A stretch of DNA of 64,000 bases from Paludicola sp. MB14-C6 (lineage in GTDB: Bacteria > Bacillota > Clostridia > Oscillospirales > Ruminococcaceae): contig NZ_CP133133.1 in NCBI RefSeq assembly GCF_030908625.1, forward strand, positions 992,001 through 1,056,000, written 5' to 3'. Below are positions 56,803 through 63,198 of this stretch, one piece after another. The position numbers were made by a program, and so were the translations under genes. The notes below the pieces were generated by a model. The model did no database searches, had not been told where the DNA came from, and saw only the letters and a list, made by a program, of their open reading frames with translations. How positions within the stretch are numbered: the first letter of the stretch is position 1; the number at the start of each line of letters is the position of its first letter.

Positions 56803-57009
56803 ATGGATAAACTAAAAAATAAAACTATGGATGGCAAAAATAGAGCTGATATTCAAATTGGAAGTAAAGTAAAAATTGTATTAAAAGTTGACCAAAGAAC
56901 AGGAAAATTAACAGAAGGTATTGTTGCAAAGTTATTAACGAAAAGCAGCTATCACCCTCATGGAATCAAGGTTATGCTTACAGATGGACAAGTTGGAAGA
57001 GTACAATAA
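56803..57009 (+). CDS. YwbE family protein
   Basis: 68 residues. RADIQIGSKVKIVLKVDQRT and GKLTEGIVAKLLTKSSYHPHGIK are the YwbE (DUF2196) signature; the end, MLTDGQVGRVQ, is also conserved. Function unknown; the fold is probably KOW/SH3-like. Homologues begin at the second in-frame methionine (56827, MDGKNRADIQ), but neither ATG has a well-placed ribosome binding site, so the start is open. Confidence 0.8.
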   Translation: MDKLKNKTMDGKNRADIQIGSKVKIVLKVDQRTGKLTEGIVAKLLTKSSYHPHGIKVMLTDGQVGRVQ

Positions 57010-57128
57010 ATTTTAATAAAATAATAGAGAACTTTGGAAGTTATTCTAAAAATCACTCGCTGTTGTGATGAATTTTTAAGTTTAAACACCTAATTATTTA
57101 CAAATATTTCTCGTACTTATAATTTCTG

Positions 57129-57157
57129 TTGACAAATTCAAATCTTCGCAGTATACT
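57129..57157 (+). promoter_or_regulatory. Promoter of the zinc-finger gene at 57213
   Basis: Consensus -35 TTGACA (57129-57134), 17-base spacer, -10 TATACT (57152-57157). The leader of about 50 bases is short and AT-rich. Confidence 0.8.
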
Positions 57158-57212
57158 ATATATAGTGTTTATTTCGGTAAACATATATTTTATAAAAGAG
57201 GTAACCTATTTA

Positions 57213-57491
57213 ATGTACAACGACAAAACTTTAATTTGTAAAGACTGTGGTTCTGAATTTGAATTCACTGCATCTGAACAAGAATTTTATGCTGAAAAAG
57301 GCTTCACAAATGAACCTCAACGCTGTAAATCTTGCCGTATCGCTCGCAAAAACTCTAACGGTAACAACAGAGGCGAAAGAGAGTTATTTGATGCAACATG
57401 TGCTGATTGTGGAAAAACTTGCAAAGTTCCTTTCCAACCAAGAAACGACAGACCAGTTTACTGCAGCGATTGCTTTGCAAATAGAAGATAG
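57213..57491 (+). CDS. Small zinc-ribbon protein (CxxCx-ssDNA-binding type)
   Basis: 92 residues: MYNDKTLICKDCGSEFEFTA, then AEKGFTNEPQRCKSC, CADCGKTCKVPF and PVYCSDCF, so four CxxC pairs giving two zinc ribbons. It belongs to the CxxCx(11)CxxC class of small zinc-domain proteins abundant in Clostridia, whose role is unproven; nucleic-acid binding is likely from the basic linker RIARKNSNGNNRGER. Strong promoter and terminator suggest a highly expressed single gene. AGAGGTAACCTATTTA precedes the ATG. Confidence 0.85.
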   Translation: MYNDKTLICKDCGSEFEFTASEQEFYAEKGFTNEPQRCKSCRIARKNSNGNNRGERELFDATCADCGKTCKVPFQPRNDRPVYCSDCFANRR

Positions 57492-57504
57492 TATAAATAT
57501 TCAG

Positions 57505-57535
57505 AAAAAACACGCTTTTGAGCGTGTTTTTTTTG
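57505..57535 (+). terminator. Terminator of the zinc-finger gene
   Basis: Hairpin AAAACACGCT-TTTG-AGCGTGTTTT followed by TTTT. Confidence 0.9.
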
Positions 57536-57701
57536 CATTAATATAATCATACTAATAATTTCCTTATTGGCTTGAATATCAATATTATTTATAGTATGAT
57601 GAATTTAGATAAATGGGTAGAAGAATAATACTAATTTTTTTCAAATCGCAGTAATTGATTTAAAATCCAATCAGTATAAAATAAAGTCATGGAGAATGCT
57701 T

Positions 57702-59069
57702 ATGAATCAAGATTATATCTATTATCAAGCAACCAAAAGTATATGTGATATTTGCTTAGCGCAAATTGATGCAAAAATTATTATTCAAAATAATAAAGTT
57801 TTTGTGTTAAAAAACTGCCCTGTTCACGGAATACAAAAACATTTATTAGAAGACGATGCCAACTACCATTTAAAAAAAGTTTTATATGATAAACCCTCTA
57901 CCATACATACCAATGAAACGAAAGCCACACAAGGCTGCCCTTTTGATTGTGGGCTTTGCGAAAATCATGAGCAGCACACTTGTATTGGACTAATTGAAAT
58001 TACAAGCAAATGTAATTTAAACTGCCCTATTTGCTATGCTAATTGTTCTGGTGACGGAAAAGACCTTCCACTAGATAAAATCGAACAGATGGTTGATTTT
58101 TATATCAAATCAGAAGGCGGAAAAGCTGAAATTCTGCAAATTAGTGGTGGTGAGCCTACCTTACATGAGGATATTTTAAAAGTGATTGCTATGTGTAAAC
58201 AGAAAAATATCGGCCATGTTATGCTCAATACAAACGGAATTCGCATTGCAGAAGATATTGAATTTGTAAAACAGCTTGCTACTTTTATCGAAGGCTTTGA
58301 AATTTATTTGCAATTTGATTCCTTTCAAGAAAAAAGCTATCAAACACTTCGAAACGTTTCCCTGCTTGAATATAAGAAAAAGGCAATAGCTAATTTAAAT
58401 CAATATAATATTCCTACCACTCTTGTTTGTACTGTTACAAAAGGAGTGAATGACAATGAAGTATCGGATATTATCAATTACGGTTTAAATACCTCCTGCG
58501 TAAGAGGAGTAAACTTTCAGCCCGTCGCTCGATTCGGAAAATATGAAAATGAGCAGCCCGATTCGCTCACAGTTTCGGGAATTATCGGATTAATTTCAAA
58601 ATCTTCAAACGGAATTTTAAAAGCAGAGGATTTTGTACCATTGCCTTGTAATGTGGAACGAGTTGCGATTACATATTTATATAAATATAAAAACAGTTTT
58701 GTACCTATTACACGAAATAAAAATATTGATAAATATGTTTCTTTTATCAGTAATACATTTTTGTTTACAATAGAAGATTCCTTATCGCAAGGCGAAGCTC
58801 CTCAGTTTGGATTTTGCAAATGCTTAGACTTTTTAGAAGATTTTAATCGAATTGTTCCAAAAAGCTTTTTTGTTTGGAGTAAAGAAGAACGTGTAAAATA
58901 TCTGAATGAAAATACATTTCGTATCAGCATTTCCTCTTTTGTTGATAAATATAATTTTGATATAAAAGGAATGCAAAAAGAATGTGTTCATATCATAACT
59001 CCCGACTGCAAACGTATTCCATTCTCTGCTTACAATATGATTCACAGGAGAAATGAAAATGCAAAATAG
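57702..59069 (+). CDS. Radical SAM enzyme of the tetraether-synthase (Tes)-like family
   Basis: 455 residues. The N-terminal part has CDIC (15-18), CPVHG (39-43) and CPFDCGLC (79-86); then the radical SAM cluster CNLNCPIC (Cys104, Cys108, Cys111), SGGEP (148-152), MLNTNG and IYLQFDSFQEKSYQTLR, and VRGVNFQPVARFG. The same order, with TKSxC...CPxHG...GCPxDCGxC before CNLNCPICxA, is known from archaeal tetraether synthase, which joins lipid tails by carbon-carbon bonds. Members of this family bind extra iron-sulfur clusters. Which substrate this one uses is unknown; the cluster of membrane and lipid genes behind it suggests a lipid or lipoprotein. GGAGAATGCTT precedes the ATG. Confidence 0.85.
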   Translation: MNQDYIYYQATKSICDICLAQIDAKIIIQNNKVFVLKNCPVHGIQKHLLEDDANYHLKKVLYDKPSTIHTNETKATQGCPFDCGLCENHEQHTCIGLIEITSKCNLNCPICYANCSGDGKDLPLDKIEQMVDFYIKSEGGKAEILQISGGEPTLHEDILKVIAMCKQKNIGHVMLNTNGIRIAEDIEFVKQLATFIEGFEIYLQFDSFQEKSYQTLRNVSLLEYKKKAIANLNQYNIPTTLVCTVTKGVNDNEVSDIINYGLNTSCVRGVNFQPVARFGKYENEQPDSLTVSGIIGLISKSSNGILKAEDFVPLPCNVERVAITYLYKYKNSFVPITRNKNIDKYVSFISNTFLFTIEDSLSQGEAPQFGFCKCLDFLEDFNRIVPKSFFVWSKEERVKYLNENTFRISISSFVDKYNFDIKGMQKECVHIITPDCKRIPFSAYNMIHRRNENAK

Positions 59070-59658
59070 TATTTTTCTAATTTGCAATATGATTTCCGTT
59101 GTATGCTTATGGCTTTTACTTTCAGCAATTACACTCAATTTCATGATTGCAAAGAAACAGGCTGTTAAAAAAGAAAAAAAATCTATAGTAGAAACCGGTA
59201 GTATGTTTTTGTTTTTTGTTGCTATGGTGCTATTGGTTTATTTAAGAATTGGTACAATCCACATTAAAAACTCGATTCTCATCCCATTAATGTTCATTGG
59301 AACATTTCTTATTGTAGTTGGCACAGTTATCAACATTTTAGGCAGATTTACGTTGAAAATGAACTGGGGTAACCAAATTCGAATATATCAAGAACATACT
59401 CTTATTAAAAACGGAATTTATCATTTCATTCGTCACCCTTTATATGCATCAACCATTCTGATGATTTATGGGTTTTCAATTCTTTATGCTAATTTTGCAG
59501 TCTTTATTTGCAATACCCTTATTTTTATCCCGTTTATGATTTATCGTGCAAAGCAAGAAGAAACCATGCTCATTCAAACGTTTCAAGAAAAGTACATCGC
59601 TTATCAGCAATGTACTGGTTTATTCCTTCCAAAATGGAGAAGAAAGAAGGTTAAATAA
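59059..59658 (+). CDS. ICMT/PEMT-like membrane methyltransferase
   Basis: 199 residues with about five helices. The SAM-binding signature of isoprenylcysteine carboxyl methyltransferase-like proteins is present: GIYHFIRHPLYASTILMIYG (RHPxY) and the C-terminal RAKQEETMLIQTF (E-E pair). Such enzymes methylate lipids, isoprenoid cysteines or phospholipid head groups at the membrane. The ATG at 59059 has AGGAGAAATGAAA upstream; the ATG at 59053 is too close. It overlaps the radical SAM gene by 11 bases, so the two are translationally coupled. Confidence 0.83.
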   Translation: MQNSIFLICNMISVVCLWLLLSAITLNFMIAKKQAVKKEKKSIVETGSMFLFFVAMVLLVYLRIGTIHIKNSILIPLMFIGTFLIVVGTVINILGRFTLKMNWGNQIRIYQEHTLIKNGIYHFIRHPLYASTILMIYGFSILYANFAVFICNTLIFIPFMIYRAKQEETMLIQTFQEKYIAYQQCTGLFLPKWRRKKVK

Positions 59659-60122
59659 TGATACGAATGGTACAAGTAAACAAACAATCTGTTGCATTTT
59701 GCAAATACACGATAGCAGGTTTGCTATGGTTAGCCCTACTCTTTCGCAGCATTATCCCCGTTTACATTGTTTTTATTATTATGTTCATCTCAGCTTTTAC
59801 AGGAGTACATCGTGCGCCATTAGTAAAGCTGTTTGATTGGACCATTGCGAAAAAAATCGGAATAAATGAAGAATATATCAATATGCACAGTATGCGCTTT
59901 GCACACATTGTAGGTTGTGTTTTTTCGGCTTTATCCATTATAACGTACTATTTCTGCCCAGTCCTTGTTCCTGCTATCCTTACTACTGTTTTAGCAATTT
60001 TGCAAACGATTGCTGCTTTTGGTTATTGCTCAGCACAAAAGCTGTATGAATGTGTAATATGCAACAGTAATTGTTGTCGGTTTGGAAAAAAGATAAGGAG
60101 TATTAAGAAAAATGCTCGATGA
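59658..60122 (+). CDS. DUF4395-type membrane protein
   Basis: 154 residues, about four helices. VNKQSVAFCKYTIAGLLWLA at the start and FTGVHRAPLVKLFDWTIAKK with INMHSMRFAHIVG are typical of DUF4395. A cysteine-rich C-terminus (GYCSAQKLYECVICNSNCCRFGKK) could bind a metal or take part in thiol exchange. The start codon overlaps the stop of the methyltransferase gene by one base, and its own end overlaps the Lgt-like gene by 11 bases. Confidence 0.78.
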   Translation: MIRMVQVNKQSVAFCKYTIAGLLWLALLFRSIIPVYIVFIIMFISAFTGVHRAPLVKLFDWTIAKKIGINEEYINMHSMRFAHIVGCVFSALSIITYYFCPVLVPAILTTVLAILQTIAAFGYCSAQKLYECVICNSNCCRFGKKIRSIKKNAR

Positions 60123-60918
60123 ACATATTGCTCCTGCAAATTTCGGTATCTTTCCTAAAATTACTTTTTTTCAATGGGAAATTCCAACCTATACTGTTTT
60201 TATGATACTTGCTTTTATTTGCGGATTTATTTGCTATAAGCTAACAGCAAACAAATTAAATGCCCTAGAAAAAAGCCACCGTACTCTTATTGTTATTTAT
60301 GCACTATTAGGTGGCGTAATTGGTGCAAAGCTCCCTATTTTAATTTTTAATATTGATTTATGGTTTCAATATCCACAAAACATCAACCTTTTGTTATCGG
60401 GAAAAACCATTGTTGGTGGGCTGATTGGCGGAGCAATTGCCGTATTTTTTATTAAGAAACGACTTCATATCACAATAAAAACCGGAAATGATATTGCAGC
60501 GCCTGCTGCACTTGGAATGGCTATTGGCCGTCTTGGATGCTTTTTTGGCGGTTGCTGTTACGGTATTGAATCGCCTAAATTCCTTGGAGTTGATTTTGGC
60601 GATGGCGTCTATCGATTTCCAACTCAAATTTACGAAATTATATTCGACTTAACCTTATTTTTTATCTTTCTTTACTTCAAAAAGAATAAAGAATTGAAAC
60701 CAGGTATATTATTTCGTTACCTATTAAATGGTTACTTATCTTTTCGTTTTCCAATGGAATTTATTCGAGAAACTGATCAAGCTTTCTTTGGCATTTCCTA
60801 TTACCAAATTCTTTGCGTAATCTGTTTATTATTTATTAACCGAAAATGGATCATTACAGCAGTTAAAAAGCACTTTCACACAAAATTGCCACCACAAAAT
60901 ATGAATGTAAAGGAGTAA
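60112..60918 (+). CDS. Prolipoprotein diacylglyceryl transferase paralogue
   Basis: 268 residues, seven helices. Lgt features are present: GKTIVGGLIGG (97-107), the arginine in the GRLGCFFGGCC stretch (Arg140), RFPTQIYE (168-175, place of the HPTQLYE motif) and RFPMEFIRE near the end. The true Lgt motif RIGNFINGE is replaced by RLGCFFGGCCYG with three cysteines, a mark of the Lgt-like paralogue group of unknown substrate. The enzyme probably transfers a lipid moiety. It is the fourth gene in a tightly overlapping cluster with the radical SAM protein. Confidence 0.85.
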   Translation: MLDEHIAPANFGIFPKITFFQWEIPTYTVFMILAFICGFICYKLTANKLNALEKSHRTLIVIYALLGGVIGAKLPILIFNIDLWFQYPQNINLLLSGKTIVGGLIGGAIAVFFIKKRLHITIKTGNDIAAPAALGMAIGRLGCFFGGCCYGIESPKFLGVDFGDGVYRFPTQIYEIIFDLTLFFIFLYFKKNKELKPGILFRYLLNGYLSFRFPMEFIRETDQAFFGISYYQILCVICLLFINRKWIITAVKKHFHTKLPPQNMNVKE

Positions 60919-60922
60919 TTGT

Positions 60923-61108
60923 ATGAATAATCAGAATCCGCTTGATGAGGAAAACCGCCCTATCGAATCTCCTGCACCTCAGCCTTCACCTAAAGAAAAA
61001 AAGCACATCTCAGCGCTAGCAACAGTTGGCATTGTTCTTTTGGTTCTATTCGCAATACCCATTTTACTTTTCGGTGCTTGTATTTTAATAATGAATTTGA
61101 GCTTTTAA
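60923..61108 (+). CDS. Small single-helix membrane protein
   Basis: 61 residues with a proline- and lysine-rich N-terminal cytoplasmic part (NRPIESPAPQPSPKEKKH) and one membrane helix (about 32-58). AAAGGAGTAATTGT precedes the ATG, only 4 bases after the Lgt-like gene, so it is part of the cluster. No family recognised. Confidence 0.65.
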   Translation: MNNQNPLDEENRPIESPAPQPSPKEKKHISALATVGIVLLVLFAIPILLFGACILIMNLSF

Positions 61109-61149
61109 TTATTATGAGCTAACCACAAAATAAACTCTTTCTACAGTCA

Positions 61150-61188
61150 AAAACCTAATCTGAATTGTTTCAAATCAGATTAGGTTTT
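61150..61188 (+). terminator. Terminator of the radical SAM cluster
   Basis: 14-bp stem AAAACCTAATCTGA / TCAGATTAGGTTTT with an 11-base loop, followed by GTCTGTTG; the T run is inside the right arm. Confidence 0.7.
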
Positions 61189-61241
61189 GTCTGTTGATAA
61201 AGTATATTATTATTTGGTATTAGGCAATTCTTGTTATAGCA

Positions 61242-61328
61242 ATATTGGGCTATCCGCCCAAACCTGACCATGCTTTTTGGCAATCGCCCCAAAAAGCATG
61301 AATAAAAAATGCTTTATTTCTCAAAATT
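61242..61328 (+). repeat. Dispersed 87-bp repeat, copy B
   Basis: 82 of 87 bases identical to 22224-22310, same orientation. It contains a perfect small hairpin TTGGGC-TATCC-GCCCAA and the 12-bp hairpin CATGCTTTTTGG / CCAAAAAGCATG. Its right end overlaps the stop codon of the GH13 gene on the other strand. Confidence 0.85.
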
Positions 61329-63198
61329 GTTTTATTTTCCAAATAGCTGATTCATATGGACGAAGATATGCTGAAGACACCTCATCATAATTGGATAACA
61401 AACGATCTCCGTTTGGGAATTCTCGTCGTTCTAATGCTACAGCACTTAAATTACATTCAACATACAAGGTTTCCGATTCATTTTTTCGATAATAAGTAAA
61501 TAGATCTTTCGCTCTTTTATTTGTAATGGTAATATCGCCATATTGTAATACGGAATTCTCTTTACGAAACGCTATTAGTCTTTGGTAAAATCGTAGTATA
61601 GAAGTTTTATCCTTCTGTTGATTTTCGACATTACAAATTTGATAATCATGATCCATCGCTATCCATGGAGTTACATCAGAAAATCCTGCAAATGGCTCAT
61701 CACTCCATTGCATTGGAGTTCTGGCATGATCTCTGGTACCTGCTAGAATTTTATGAAAGGCTTCTTTCTCACTCATGGTTTTACATAAATCTTGATATAG
61801 GTTAATTGCTTCTACATCACGTAAATCAGAAATATCTTTGAACTCTTGATTTATCATGCCCAACTCTTGACCTTGATAAATAAATGGGGTACCACGAAGA
61901 GTAAGCTGGATAACTGCCAATAACTTGCCTAGCACATTACGATAACGTATATCGGAATTTACCTTTGAAATCATACGTGGGTTATCATGATTTTCATAGA
62001 ACAAAGACGGCTGACAATGGTTTGTGTAATGCTCCATCCAATCAATCATATACTCTTTTAAGTAATTCAAATCATACTGATAATCATCAAAACGAACATG
62101 TCCCGGTGTTTCTAAATGATCAAAAGAGAATACCATATCCAGTTCTTTGCGATAATCTGCGGTTAACAACTTACTCATTTCCATTCCGGTTCCCGGAGTT
62201 TCACCAACAGAAAACGCTTTATATGGAGCAAATGCTTTTGCTTGAAGCTCTCTTAAATATTCATGAAGCCTTGGCCCATAAAAATAATGCTCAACACCTG
62301 TATATTCCATCAAAGCGCCAATACTTTCATTACCAGCAGGTAATCCCTCGCGTTTGGATATATAGTTGATAACATCCATTCGAAATCCGTCGACACCTTT
62401 ATTAAGCCACCATTTTACCATGTCCTGAATTTCTTTGCGGACTGCTTCACTCTCCCAATTTAAGTCCATTTGCTTTTTAGAAAACAAATGCAACGCATAC
62501 TGATTACACTCTTCAATATAGTTCCATGCACTTCCGCCAAAGAACGAAGTCCAATTATTCGGATTATCTTTGAAAATATAATAATCATGATATGGAGAAT
62601 TTGGCTCATGAATTGCCTTTTGAAACCATTCGTGCTCATCTGATGTATGATTTACAACCAAATCCATTATCAATTTCATCCCACGAGAATGAATTTCTTG
62701 TAATAGTACATCAAAATCCTGCATTGTTCCAAACTCTGTCATGATTTTTTGATAATCTCGAATATCATATCCATTGTCATCATTTGGAGAATCATAAATC
62801 GGAGAAAGCCAAATTGCGTCAATGCCAAGCTGTTTTAAATAATCAAGTTTTTCAATCATACCCTGTAAATCGCCTATTCCGTCGCCATTTCTGTCTTTAA
62901 AGCTTCGAGGATATATCTGATAAAAAACAGCCTCTTTCCACCATGCCTTTTGGATTGGGCAAGTATCTGTTTGGGGAACATCTGGTTCACTGTTTAATAA
63001 TTCTAATAAAGTTTCAACAAAGCGATCATCTATTTGCTTTTTCAATAGTTTAGGTAATGCTTTTAGTTTCAAATTGCTAACAAGTGGATTCGTAATTGCG
63101 TGTTCCTTAACACCCATTTGCAGCAATATTTTTTTGATAATATCCCGCCCGATTGGGTTAGCATACACATCTTTTATACGATTATTCTCTGTTAACAT
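61321..63198 (-). CDS. GH13 alpha-glucosidase (oligo-1,6-glucosidase type) with extra N-terminal domain
   Basis: 625 residues. The GH13 barrel starts at about residue 85 (WWKEAVFYQIYPRSFKDRNG) and has DLVVNHTSDEH, GFRMDVINYISK (nucleophile Asp), FSVGETPG (acid Glu) and YENHDNPRM (third Asp); QIYPRSF with GDGIGDLQGM is typical of the MalL/oligo-1,6-glucosidase subfamily. The first 85 residues (LTENNRIKDVYANPIGRD...) are an added domain not part of GH13. No signal peptide, so it acts on imported oligosaccharides. The ATG at 63198 has AGCAGGAGTAGTGTT upstream. It lies 4 bases after the sugar symporter gene. Confidence 0.88.
   Translation of the reverse strand: MLTENNRIKDVYANPIGRDIIKKILLQMGVKEHAITNPLVSNLKLKALPKLLKKQIDDRFVETLLELLNSEPDVPQTDTCPIQKAWWKEAVFYQIYPRSFKDRNGDGIGDLQGMIEKLDYLKQLGIDAIWLSPIYDSPNDDNGYDIRDYQKIMTEFGTMQDFDVLLQEIHSRGMKLIMDLVVNHTSDEHEWFQKAIHEPNSPYHDYYIFKDNPNNWTSFFGGSAWNYIEECNQYALHLFSKKQMDLNWESEAVRKEIQDMVKWWLNKGVDGFRMDVINYISKREGLPAGNESIGALMEYTGVEHYFYGPRLHEYLRELQAKAFAPYKAFSVGETPGTGMEMSKLLTADYRKELDMVFSFDHLETPGHVRFDDYQYDLNYLKEYMIDWMEHYTNHCQPSLFYENHDNPRMISKVNSDIRYRNVLGKLLAVIQLTLRGTPFIYQGQELGMINQEFKDISDLRDVEAINLYQDLCKTMSEKEAFHKILAGTRDHARTPMQWSDEPFAGFSDVTPWIAMDHDYQICNVENQQKDKTSILRFYQRLIAFRKENSVLQYGDITITNKRAKDLFTYYRKNESETLYVECNLSAVALERREFPNGDRLLSNYDEVSSAYLRPYESAIWKIKQF

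Follow-up and report, generated by a model that had tools for sequence, protein, structure and literature searches.

Tes, the structurally studied member of a superfamily of radical SAM enzymes (also GDGT-MAS; structure 7tol, NCBIfam model NF045702), binds two lipids and joins their tails. Its bacterial homologues have been put forward as candidates for the synthesis of membrane-spanning lipids, with the activity unconfirmed (PMC8941075, Zeng et al.), and a Black Sea survey attributes to them no experimentally confirmed function (PMC11868695). TrsS, a radical SAM (seleno)protein recognized by model NF045646, is entered in a review table (PMC13188914). Two further systems concern lipidated cysteines. 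In the MYXO-CTERM/myxosortase system (PMC11980579), a conserved C-terminal cysteine has been put forward as a lipidation site, with an Lgt-like enzyme as the possible catalyst, though the lipidating enzyme itself is not identified there; the cysteine comes first, followed by a helix and an Arg-rich end, the topology is inverted and a CPBP protease cuts the protein. In the dyb system (PMC12636315), which produces a ribosomally synthesized and post-translationally modified peptide (RiPP)-lipoprotein, peptide modification is tied to Lgt lipidation of a lipobox cysteine. Here we describe a five-gene cluster from a 64,000-nucleotide stretch of the Paludicola sp. MB14-C6 genome (contig NZ_CP133133.1, positions 992,001 to 1,056,000; hereafter the window), in which a relative of Tes and TrsS is encoded together with a paralogue of Lgt and a small membrane protein that carries a lipobox-like cysteine motif, the tag, near its C-terminus. 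The arrangement is found again in distant genomes and is therefore more than a product of chance; it points to a mode of lipid attachment or lipid joining that has not been described. The features of the cluster, in positions of the window, are as follows.

57702..59069, forward strand: member of the Lgt-linked branch within the Tes/TrsS superfamily of radical SAM proteins; 455 amino acids, start codon ATG at 57702.
59053..59658, forward strand: ICMT/PEMT-like membrane methyltransferase; 201 amino acids.
59658..60122, forward strand: DUF4395 membrane protein with a cysteine-rich C-terminal tail; 154 amino acids.
60112..60918, forward strand: Lgt paralogue; 268 amino acids, arginines kept, three E. 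coli Lgt positions replaced.
60923..61108, forward strand: 61-amino-acid membrane protein, the proposed substrate; one helix, C-terminal lipobox-like motif.
61150..61188, forward strand: 18-nucleotide inverted repeat, 94% complementary, downstream of the fifth gene; the transcription unit may end here.

Open reading frame (ORF) calling confirmed all five genes in one direction over 57702-61108, four of them overlapping or touching as the initial annotation had described. The overlaps measure 17 nucleotides (radical SAM/ICMT-like), 1 nucleotide (ICMT-like/DUF4395) and 11 nucleotides (DUF4395/Lgt), and a gap of 4 nucleotides separates the Lgt stop (60918) from the start of the 61-amino-acid gene (60923). 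A second in-frame ATG of the radical SAM gene lies at 57696. The family calls made for the first four genes were likewise borne out by Pfam, as the scores of all six matched families exceed their cut-offs: Radical_SAM (80.4 bits), Zn_ribbon_HMPTM (55.2 bits, a zinc ribbon forming the N-terminal part of the radical SAM protein), ICMT (45.3 bits, cut-off 24), PEMT (40.8 bits), DUF4395 (56.5 bits) and LGT (117.1 bits, cut-off 24.9). The 61-amino-acid protein matches no Pfam family. The five-gene set and its tag are real and, within the literature searched, undescribed, though the protein families are known. In agreement with the initial annotation, which knew of no described system of this kind, we recognized no description of this gene set among the literature matches listed, nor were DUF4395 and radical SAM found together in one paper.

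Synteny was examined in 28 loci, comprising the window and 27 relatives of its radical SAM protein that are 27.6 to 58% identical to it. An Lgt paralogue lies within the cluster in 24 of them, so that the shared gene order, whose absence from relatives had been set beforehand as a possible refutation, holds. Contig ends truncate three of the four loci in which no Lgt was found (L002, L153 and L154). The remaining one, L120, on a plasmid of Mycolicibacterium vanbaalenii, is complete and contains neither an Lgt nor a tag by the rule given below. An Lgt also accompanies the radical SAM gene in two further plasmid-collection records, from Mycobacterium branderi, in which it is annotated, and from Nonomuraea, in which it is recognized by resemblance of an ORF end only. 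By comparison, none of 19 TrsS-type control loci holds an Lgt; 15 of these controls hold a protein over the TrsS cut-off, and L075-L078 were assigned by the tree. The ICMT-like gene is found in 20 of the 28 loci, being distant and within a longer protein in L084, and DUF4395 in 13. As a proxy for co-occurrence only, 17 of 20 radical SAM rows share their contig size with an Lgt or DUF4395 row (P0001-P0025 rows with contigs over 4 kb, compared with partial Lgt and DUF4395 lists).

The last gene had been listed simply as encoding a one-helix protein. The helix is indeed present; the protein, however, is no bystander and proves to be a conserved part of the system, marked by GxC near its C-terminus. 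It carries KEKK in a hydrophilic N-terminus, a single helix and LLFGAC near the C-terminus, followed by 8 residues, which places the tag cysteine at Cys53 (codon 61079-61081). A small membrane protein with a near-C-terminal cysteine adjoins the enzymes in all 24 loci with an Lgt, the one in L084 being doubtful, and nearly all tags follow one order: a positively charged loop, then a largely or wholly uncharged helix, then G-x-C and 4-17 mostly hydrophobic residues. Several loci encode more than one tag protein (three each in L123 and L146, and two each in L122, L126, L144, L145 and L198), and the bodies are diverse: of 595 pairs compared, 56 show similarity at E<1e-3. Among 35 tags picked by eye, glycine stands at -2 in 26, a hydrophobic residue at -5 in 33 and proline at -7 in 12. 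Lysine or arginine precedes the helix in 34 and no more than two such residues follow it, which suggests that the tag proteins would be oriented with the N-terminus inside and the C-terminus outside. This is the orientation on which Lgt acts. A PROSITE-type lipobox pattern is fitted by 17 of the 35, at the C-terminus, whereas in a bacterial lipoprotein signal the lipobox closes a hydrophobic stretch at the N-terminus.

For counting, a tag protein was defined by a rule that requires 35-200 amino acids, a hydrophobic helix ending at a cysteine 1-20 residues from the end, and glycine or alanine at -2 or glycine at -1 relative to that cysteine. Matches are found in 18 of the 24 Lgt loci and in none of the 19 TrsS-type controls (310 small ORFs, with wider flanks in the controls), corresponding to a Fisher p = 1.6e-7 when L120 is counted with the controls. 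Eight Lgt loci were fetched after the motif had been noted, and the rule matches 6 of these (p = 7e-5). The total of 19 in 28 loci includes one doubtful match in L154, a contig-cut locus that shows no Lgt. Among the six misses, GxC is recognizable by eye in L119, L122 and L125, while L144 and L145 have a C-terminal cysteine without GxC and the sixth is L084. The actinobacterial tags, read after the motif was known, are AGIC, AGYC, GGLC, VGVC and AGIC, and GxC tags adjoin the radical SAM and Lgt pair in 3 of 3 actinobacterial records having it, if the Lgt of Nonomuraea is accepted by resemblance only. The triad of radical SAM, Lgt and GxC genes in L122, L198 and L199 (two mycobacteria and Nonomuraea, from the plasmid collection) has tags ending in GxCTGxNP. 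A narrower rule applied to 864 kb of the window genome (1057 ORFs) returned the 61-amino-acid protein and one weaker match, and the idea of a genome-wide sorting tag was dropped for this 29% of the genome.

The radical SAM protein can be assigned by sequence to the Tes/TrsS superfamily, with scores below both curated cut-offs. Its best NCBIfam model is that of TrsS (341.4 bits, cut-off 490), the Tes model gives 290.9 bits (equivalog cut-off 450), and the closest solved structure in a sequence search is archaeal Tes (7tol, E = 1.9e-72). Alignment located all three Tes motifs, in agreement with the cysteine order read initially: a rubredoxin-like C-x2-C-x20-C-x2-H (C15/C18/C39/H42, with H42 replaced by Cys in some relatives), an N-terminal auxiliary C-x3-C-x2-C with a conserved histidine (C79/C83/C86/H89) and the radical SAM CxxxCxxC (C104/C108/C111). 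The positions of Met439 and Tyr459, which archaeal Tes conserves, are occupied by other residues, in a Tes numbering that here and below is taken from the alignment. Across 77 aligned sequences (the window and 76 of the 120 listed matches, all fairly close at 53-88% identity), every sequence has C316 and C428, and at least 90% have C374. The C-terminal cysteines are rearranged in the sub-branch of the window and only there, the positions of Tes Cys438 and Cys470 having been lost and C374 gained; in the Lgt-linked proteins of G757 and G978 the CC and PFC cysteines stand much as in Tes or TrsS, and the proteins of G678, G1018 and Persicobacter show an intermediate pattern. For three homologues among the 120 listed, the name given in the source is '7,8-dihydro-6-hydroxymethylpterin dimethyltransferase', a label found incorrect for the archaeal enzyme in the work on Tes.

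In an unrooted maximum-likelihood tree of 51 proteins, a branch with 100/100 support has Tes, 20 TrsS-type proteins and one haloarchaeal relative on one side. On the other stand all 25 Lgt-linked proteins, the M. vanbaalenii protein of L120 and the proteins of the three contig-cut loci. Linkage to Lgt requires three changes on this tree because the contig-cut L002, L153 and L154, in which an Lgt is not visible, sit among Lgt-linked rows; L120 is weakly placed beside them. The protein of L128 (G988) was left out, its gene being broken by two in-frame TAG codons, and the Lgt and tag genes persist alongside. Like Tes, then, the window protein has the rubredoxin-like, auxiliary and CxxxCxxC motifs; unlike Tes, it stays under the Tes cut-off, falls outside the branch of Tes and TrsS, lacks Met439 and Tyr459 and is encoded in a bacterial, Lgt-linked operon. 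The synthesis of membrane-spanning lipids, to which the initial annotation had connected bacterial relatives of this radical SAM group, is thus not established, and such lipids are a possible product of the cluster. TrsS is its best-scoring model, yet the protein stays under that cut-off too, and the 19 TrsS-type loci have neither an Lgt nor a tag by rule. In the one TrsS locus whose neighbourhood was scanned, the adjacent genes are of the DVU_1553, 1555, 1556 and 1557 families, whereas the window genes belong to other families. With regard to bacterial Mss, Thermotoga maritima, one of the controls, was not among the controls matching NF045646 at E <= 1e-60. An anti-phage role was considered and dropped, with only weak viperin-type radical SAM matches (55.1 and 44.2 bits), as was an origin from phages: two patterns found no relative in viral contigs, and phages gave only partial radical SAM matches of 22.6-31.6%.

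The Lgt paralogue resembles Lgt (5azb) in its Pfam score, in its retained Lgt core and in the arginines of the R143 and R239 regions. It departs from Lgt in scoring below the equivalog cut-offs (TIGR00544, 72.7 of 118.9 bits), in carrying V, C and C at the positions of E. coli Lgt H103, N146 and E151, and in being the third LGT-family gene of its genome. One of the two other copies has Asn at the N146 position and the other also has GCC. With two other LGT-family genes available, ordinary lipoproteins probably do not depend on the cluster copy. The GCC motif was tried as a hallmark of the cluster Lgt and rejected, being absent from L083, L119, L122 and L127 and present in an LGT-family paralogue encoded at 57000-63000 of the window genome, outside the window (L130); no radical SAM partner of this family occurs in these 6 kb.

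The repeated finding of an Lgt-family enzyme beside a lipobox-like cysteine protein and a Tes-superfamily radical SAM enzyme leads us to favour lipidation followed by radical modification, in which the Lgt paralogue would lipidate the C-terminal cysteine and the Tes-like enzyme would act on that lipid; we place the probability of this at roughly 0.45, somewhat short of even odds. The topology, the relation of enzyme to substrate and each chemical step we infer as follows. The operon would be devoted to attaching lipid to small membrane proteins that carry a cysteine tag at the C-terminus. Its substrate would be the product of the last gene, with a cytosolic N-terminus, an outward helix and the lipobox-like G-x-C at the outer face, and the tag would amount to a lipoprotein signal helix relocated to the end of the protein. 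The Lgt paralogue would move a diacylglyceryl or related lipid onto the tag cysteine, and the Tes-like enzyme would next modify the lipid tail, most likely by coupling it to a second lipid or by some other functionalization of an unactivated carbon. The ICMT-like and DUF4395 proteins would make up a module, not present everywhere, that provides for methylation and perhaps for the supply of metal or electrons. The initial annotation had proposed a pathway that links or caps lipid tails or lipoprotein lipids, and of these the lipoprotein lipids suit the C-terminal cysteine tag better. The more specific version, in which diacylglycerol added by the Lgt paralogue to the C-terminal cysteine would have its tail coupled to another lipid by the Tes-family enzyme to yield a protein-linked membrane-spanning lipid anchor, we regard as unlikely.

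Several observations weigh against lipidation followed by radical modification. Because the Lgt paralogue falls short of the equivalog cut-offs and has lost H103, N146 and E151, positions reported to be important in E. coli Lgt, it may not use a thiol acceptor. The C-terminal cysteines of L144 and L145 lack GxC, and L084 offers only a doubtful one. The motif was noted from 16 loci, and the rule was finalized once the tails in all 28 loci were known; since some tags are also mutually related, the matches are not independent. ICMT enzymes take S-adenosylmethionine from the cytosol, and the tag cysteine is predicted to lie outside, away from it. No recurrent peptidase gene was noticed inside the clusters, though no systematic search for one was made.

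MYXO-CTERM comes nearest as an idea, since it too combines a tag with a dedicated enzyme. Its topology and components are different: in the 35 tags of the present system the cysteine stands behind the helix, the Lgt paralogue is co-encoded and the partner is a radical SAM enzyme. The cluster links a Tes-family enzyme to one specific partner, the Lgt paralogue, and to one candidate substrate, the C-terminal GxC protein, which opens the function to a direct test with three genes. The cluster is relevant to the role of the bacterial Tes-like enzymes, whose functions lack confirmation, and to the identity of the Lgt-like enzyme, if there is one, behind the lipidation of C-terminal cysteines proposed for MYXO-CTERM proteins.

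A free-lipid pathway, which comes close to the view taken in the initial annotation, is possible, if doubtful. The Tes-like enzyme would then join phospholipid tails into membrane-spanning or otherwise modified lipids, with the Lgt paralogue shifting diacylglycerol to a small acceptor, the ICMT-like protein methylating a head group and the GxC protein acting as scaffold or regulator. Such a pathway would fit the relationship to Tes and the presence of AMP-binding enzymes and an acyltransferase near some clusters. It would also fit the methyltransferase, which matches not only ICMT but also PEMT and, at a weak score, a model for lipid A phosphate methyltransferase. With the ICMT model NF040696 the methyltransferase stays below the cut-off (83.6 of 160 bits). 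The free-lipid pathway leaves unexplained, however, why a cluster should encode several tag proteins with varied bodies and one conserved cysteine motif, and Tes Met439 and Tyr459 are not kept, although Tes variants of either stayed active.

Peptide modification, in which the radical SAM enzyme would put a thioether or other bond on the tag cysteine and the Lgt paralogue would only lipidate or export the product, appears quite unlikely. Small variable cysteine proteins beside a radical SAM gene do resemble RiPPs, and the dyb RiPP-lipoprotein (PMC12636315) provides a precedent, albeit one that relies on the general lipoprotein pathway, has its lipobox at the N-terminus and employs an MNIO enzyme, unlike the present cluster. 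On the other hand, no SPASM domain is found among the Pfam matches, the closest solved relative is by far a lipid enzyme, the cysteine is predicted at the outer face, remote from a cytosolic enzyme, and the tags sit in hydrophobic helices. Slightly less likely still is a role of the tag cysteine as a metal or iron-sulfur ligand in a small protein that anchors the radical SAM enzyme or supplies electrons together with DUF4395, for which the invariant C-terminal cysteine set of DUF4395 and the rearranged C-terminal cysteines of the radical SAM protein in the window's sub-branch might speak, since a single cysteine at a helix end makes a poor ligand set, some loci hold several divergent copies and clusters without DUF4395 still have the C-terminal cysteine protein. 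The set in DUF4395 comprises C15, C124, C132, C139 and C140, invariant together with H83 in 56 aligned sequences (the window and 55 of the 120 listed matches).

The distribution of the cluster is patchy, and horizontal transfer is likely. The 28 loci stem from the window's phylum, from Omnitrophota, from a Bacteroidota plasmid and from actinobacterial plasmids. Among 198 relatives of the window genome, that genome alone carries this radical SAM branch, the next matches being TrsS-like proteins of 34-37% in three genomes. The branch occurs in at least 4 of 398 genomes of the window's phylum (E <= 1e-90), in at least 13 of 384 genomes of the phylum of G959 (E <= 1e-80; L002, which comes from G959, is an Omnitrophota record), and in 2 of 67, 4 of 63, 1 of 4 and 1 of 22 genomes of further groups. 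Each count includes its centre genome, and those of the phylum and TrsS-control scans, in which at most four candidates per genome were scored, are lower bounds.

The inverted repeat at 61150-61188 is absent from the list of terminator-like sites, which holds 6 sites where 2.2 were expected. In L084, L126 and L146, an ArsP_1 permease and Se/S-carrier-like and Carb_kinase-like proteins adjoin the radical SAM gene (by Pfam for L126, by eye for the others). AMP-binding enzymes lie near four clusters (L126, L143, L145 and L146), a PlsC-type acyltransferase near L145, hexapeptide transferases near L124 and L143, and alpha/beta hydrolases near L124, L143 and L146; L124, L126, L143, L145 and L146 all belong to the genome group around G959.

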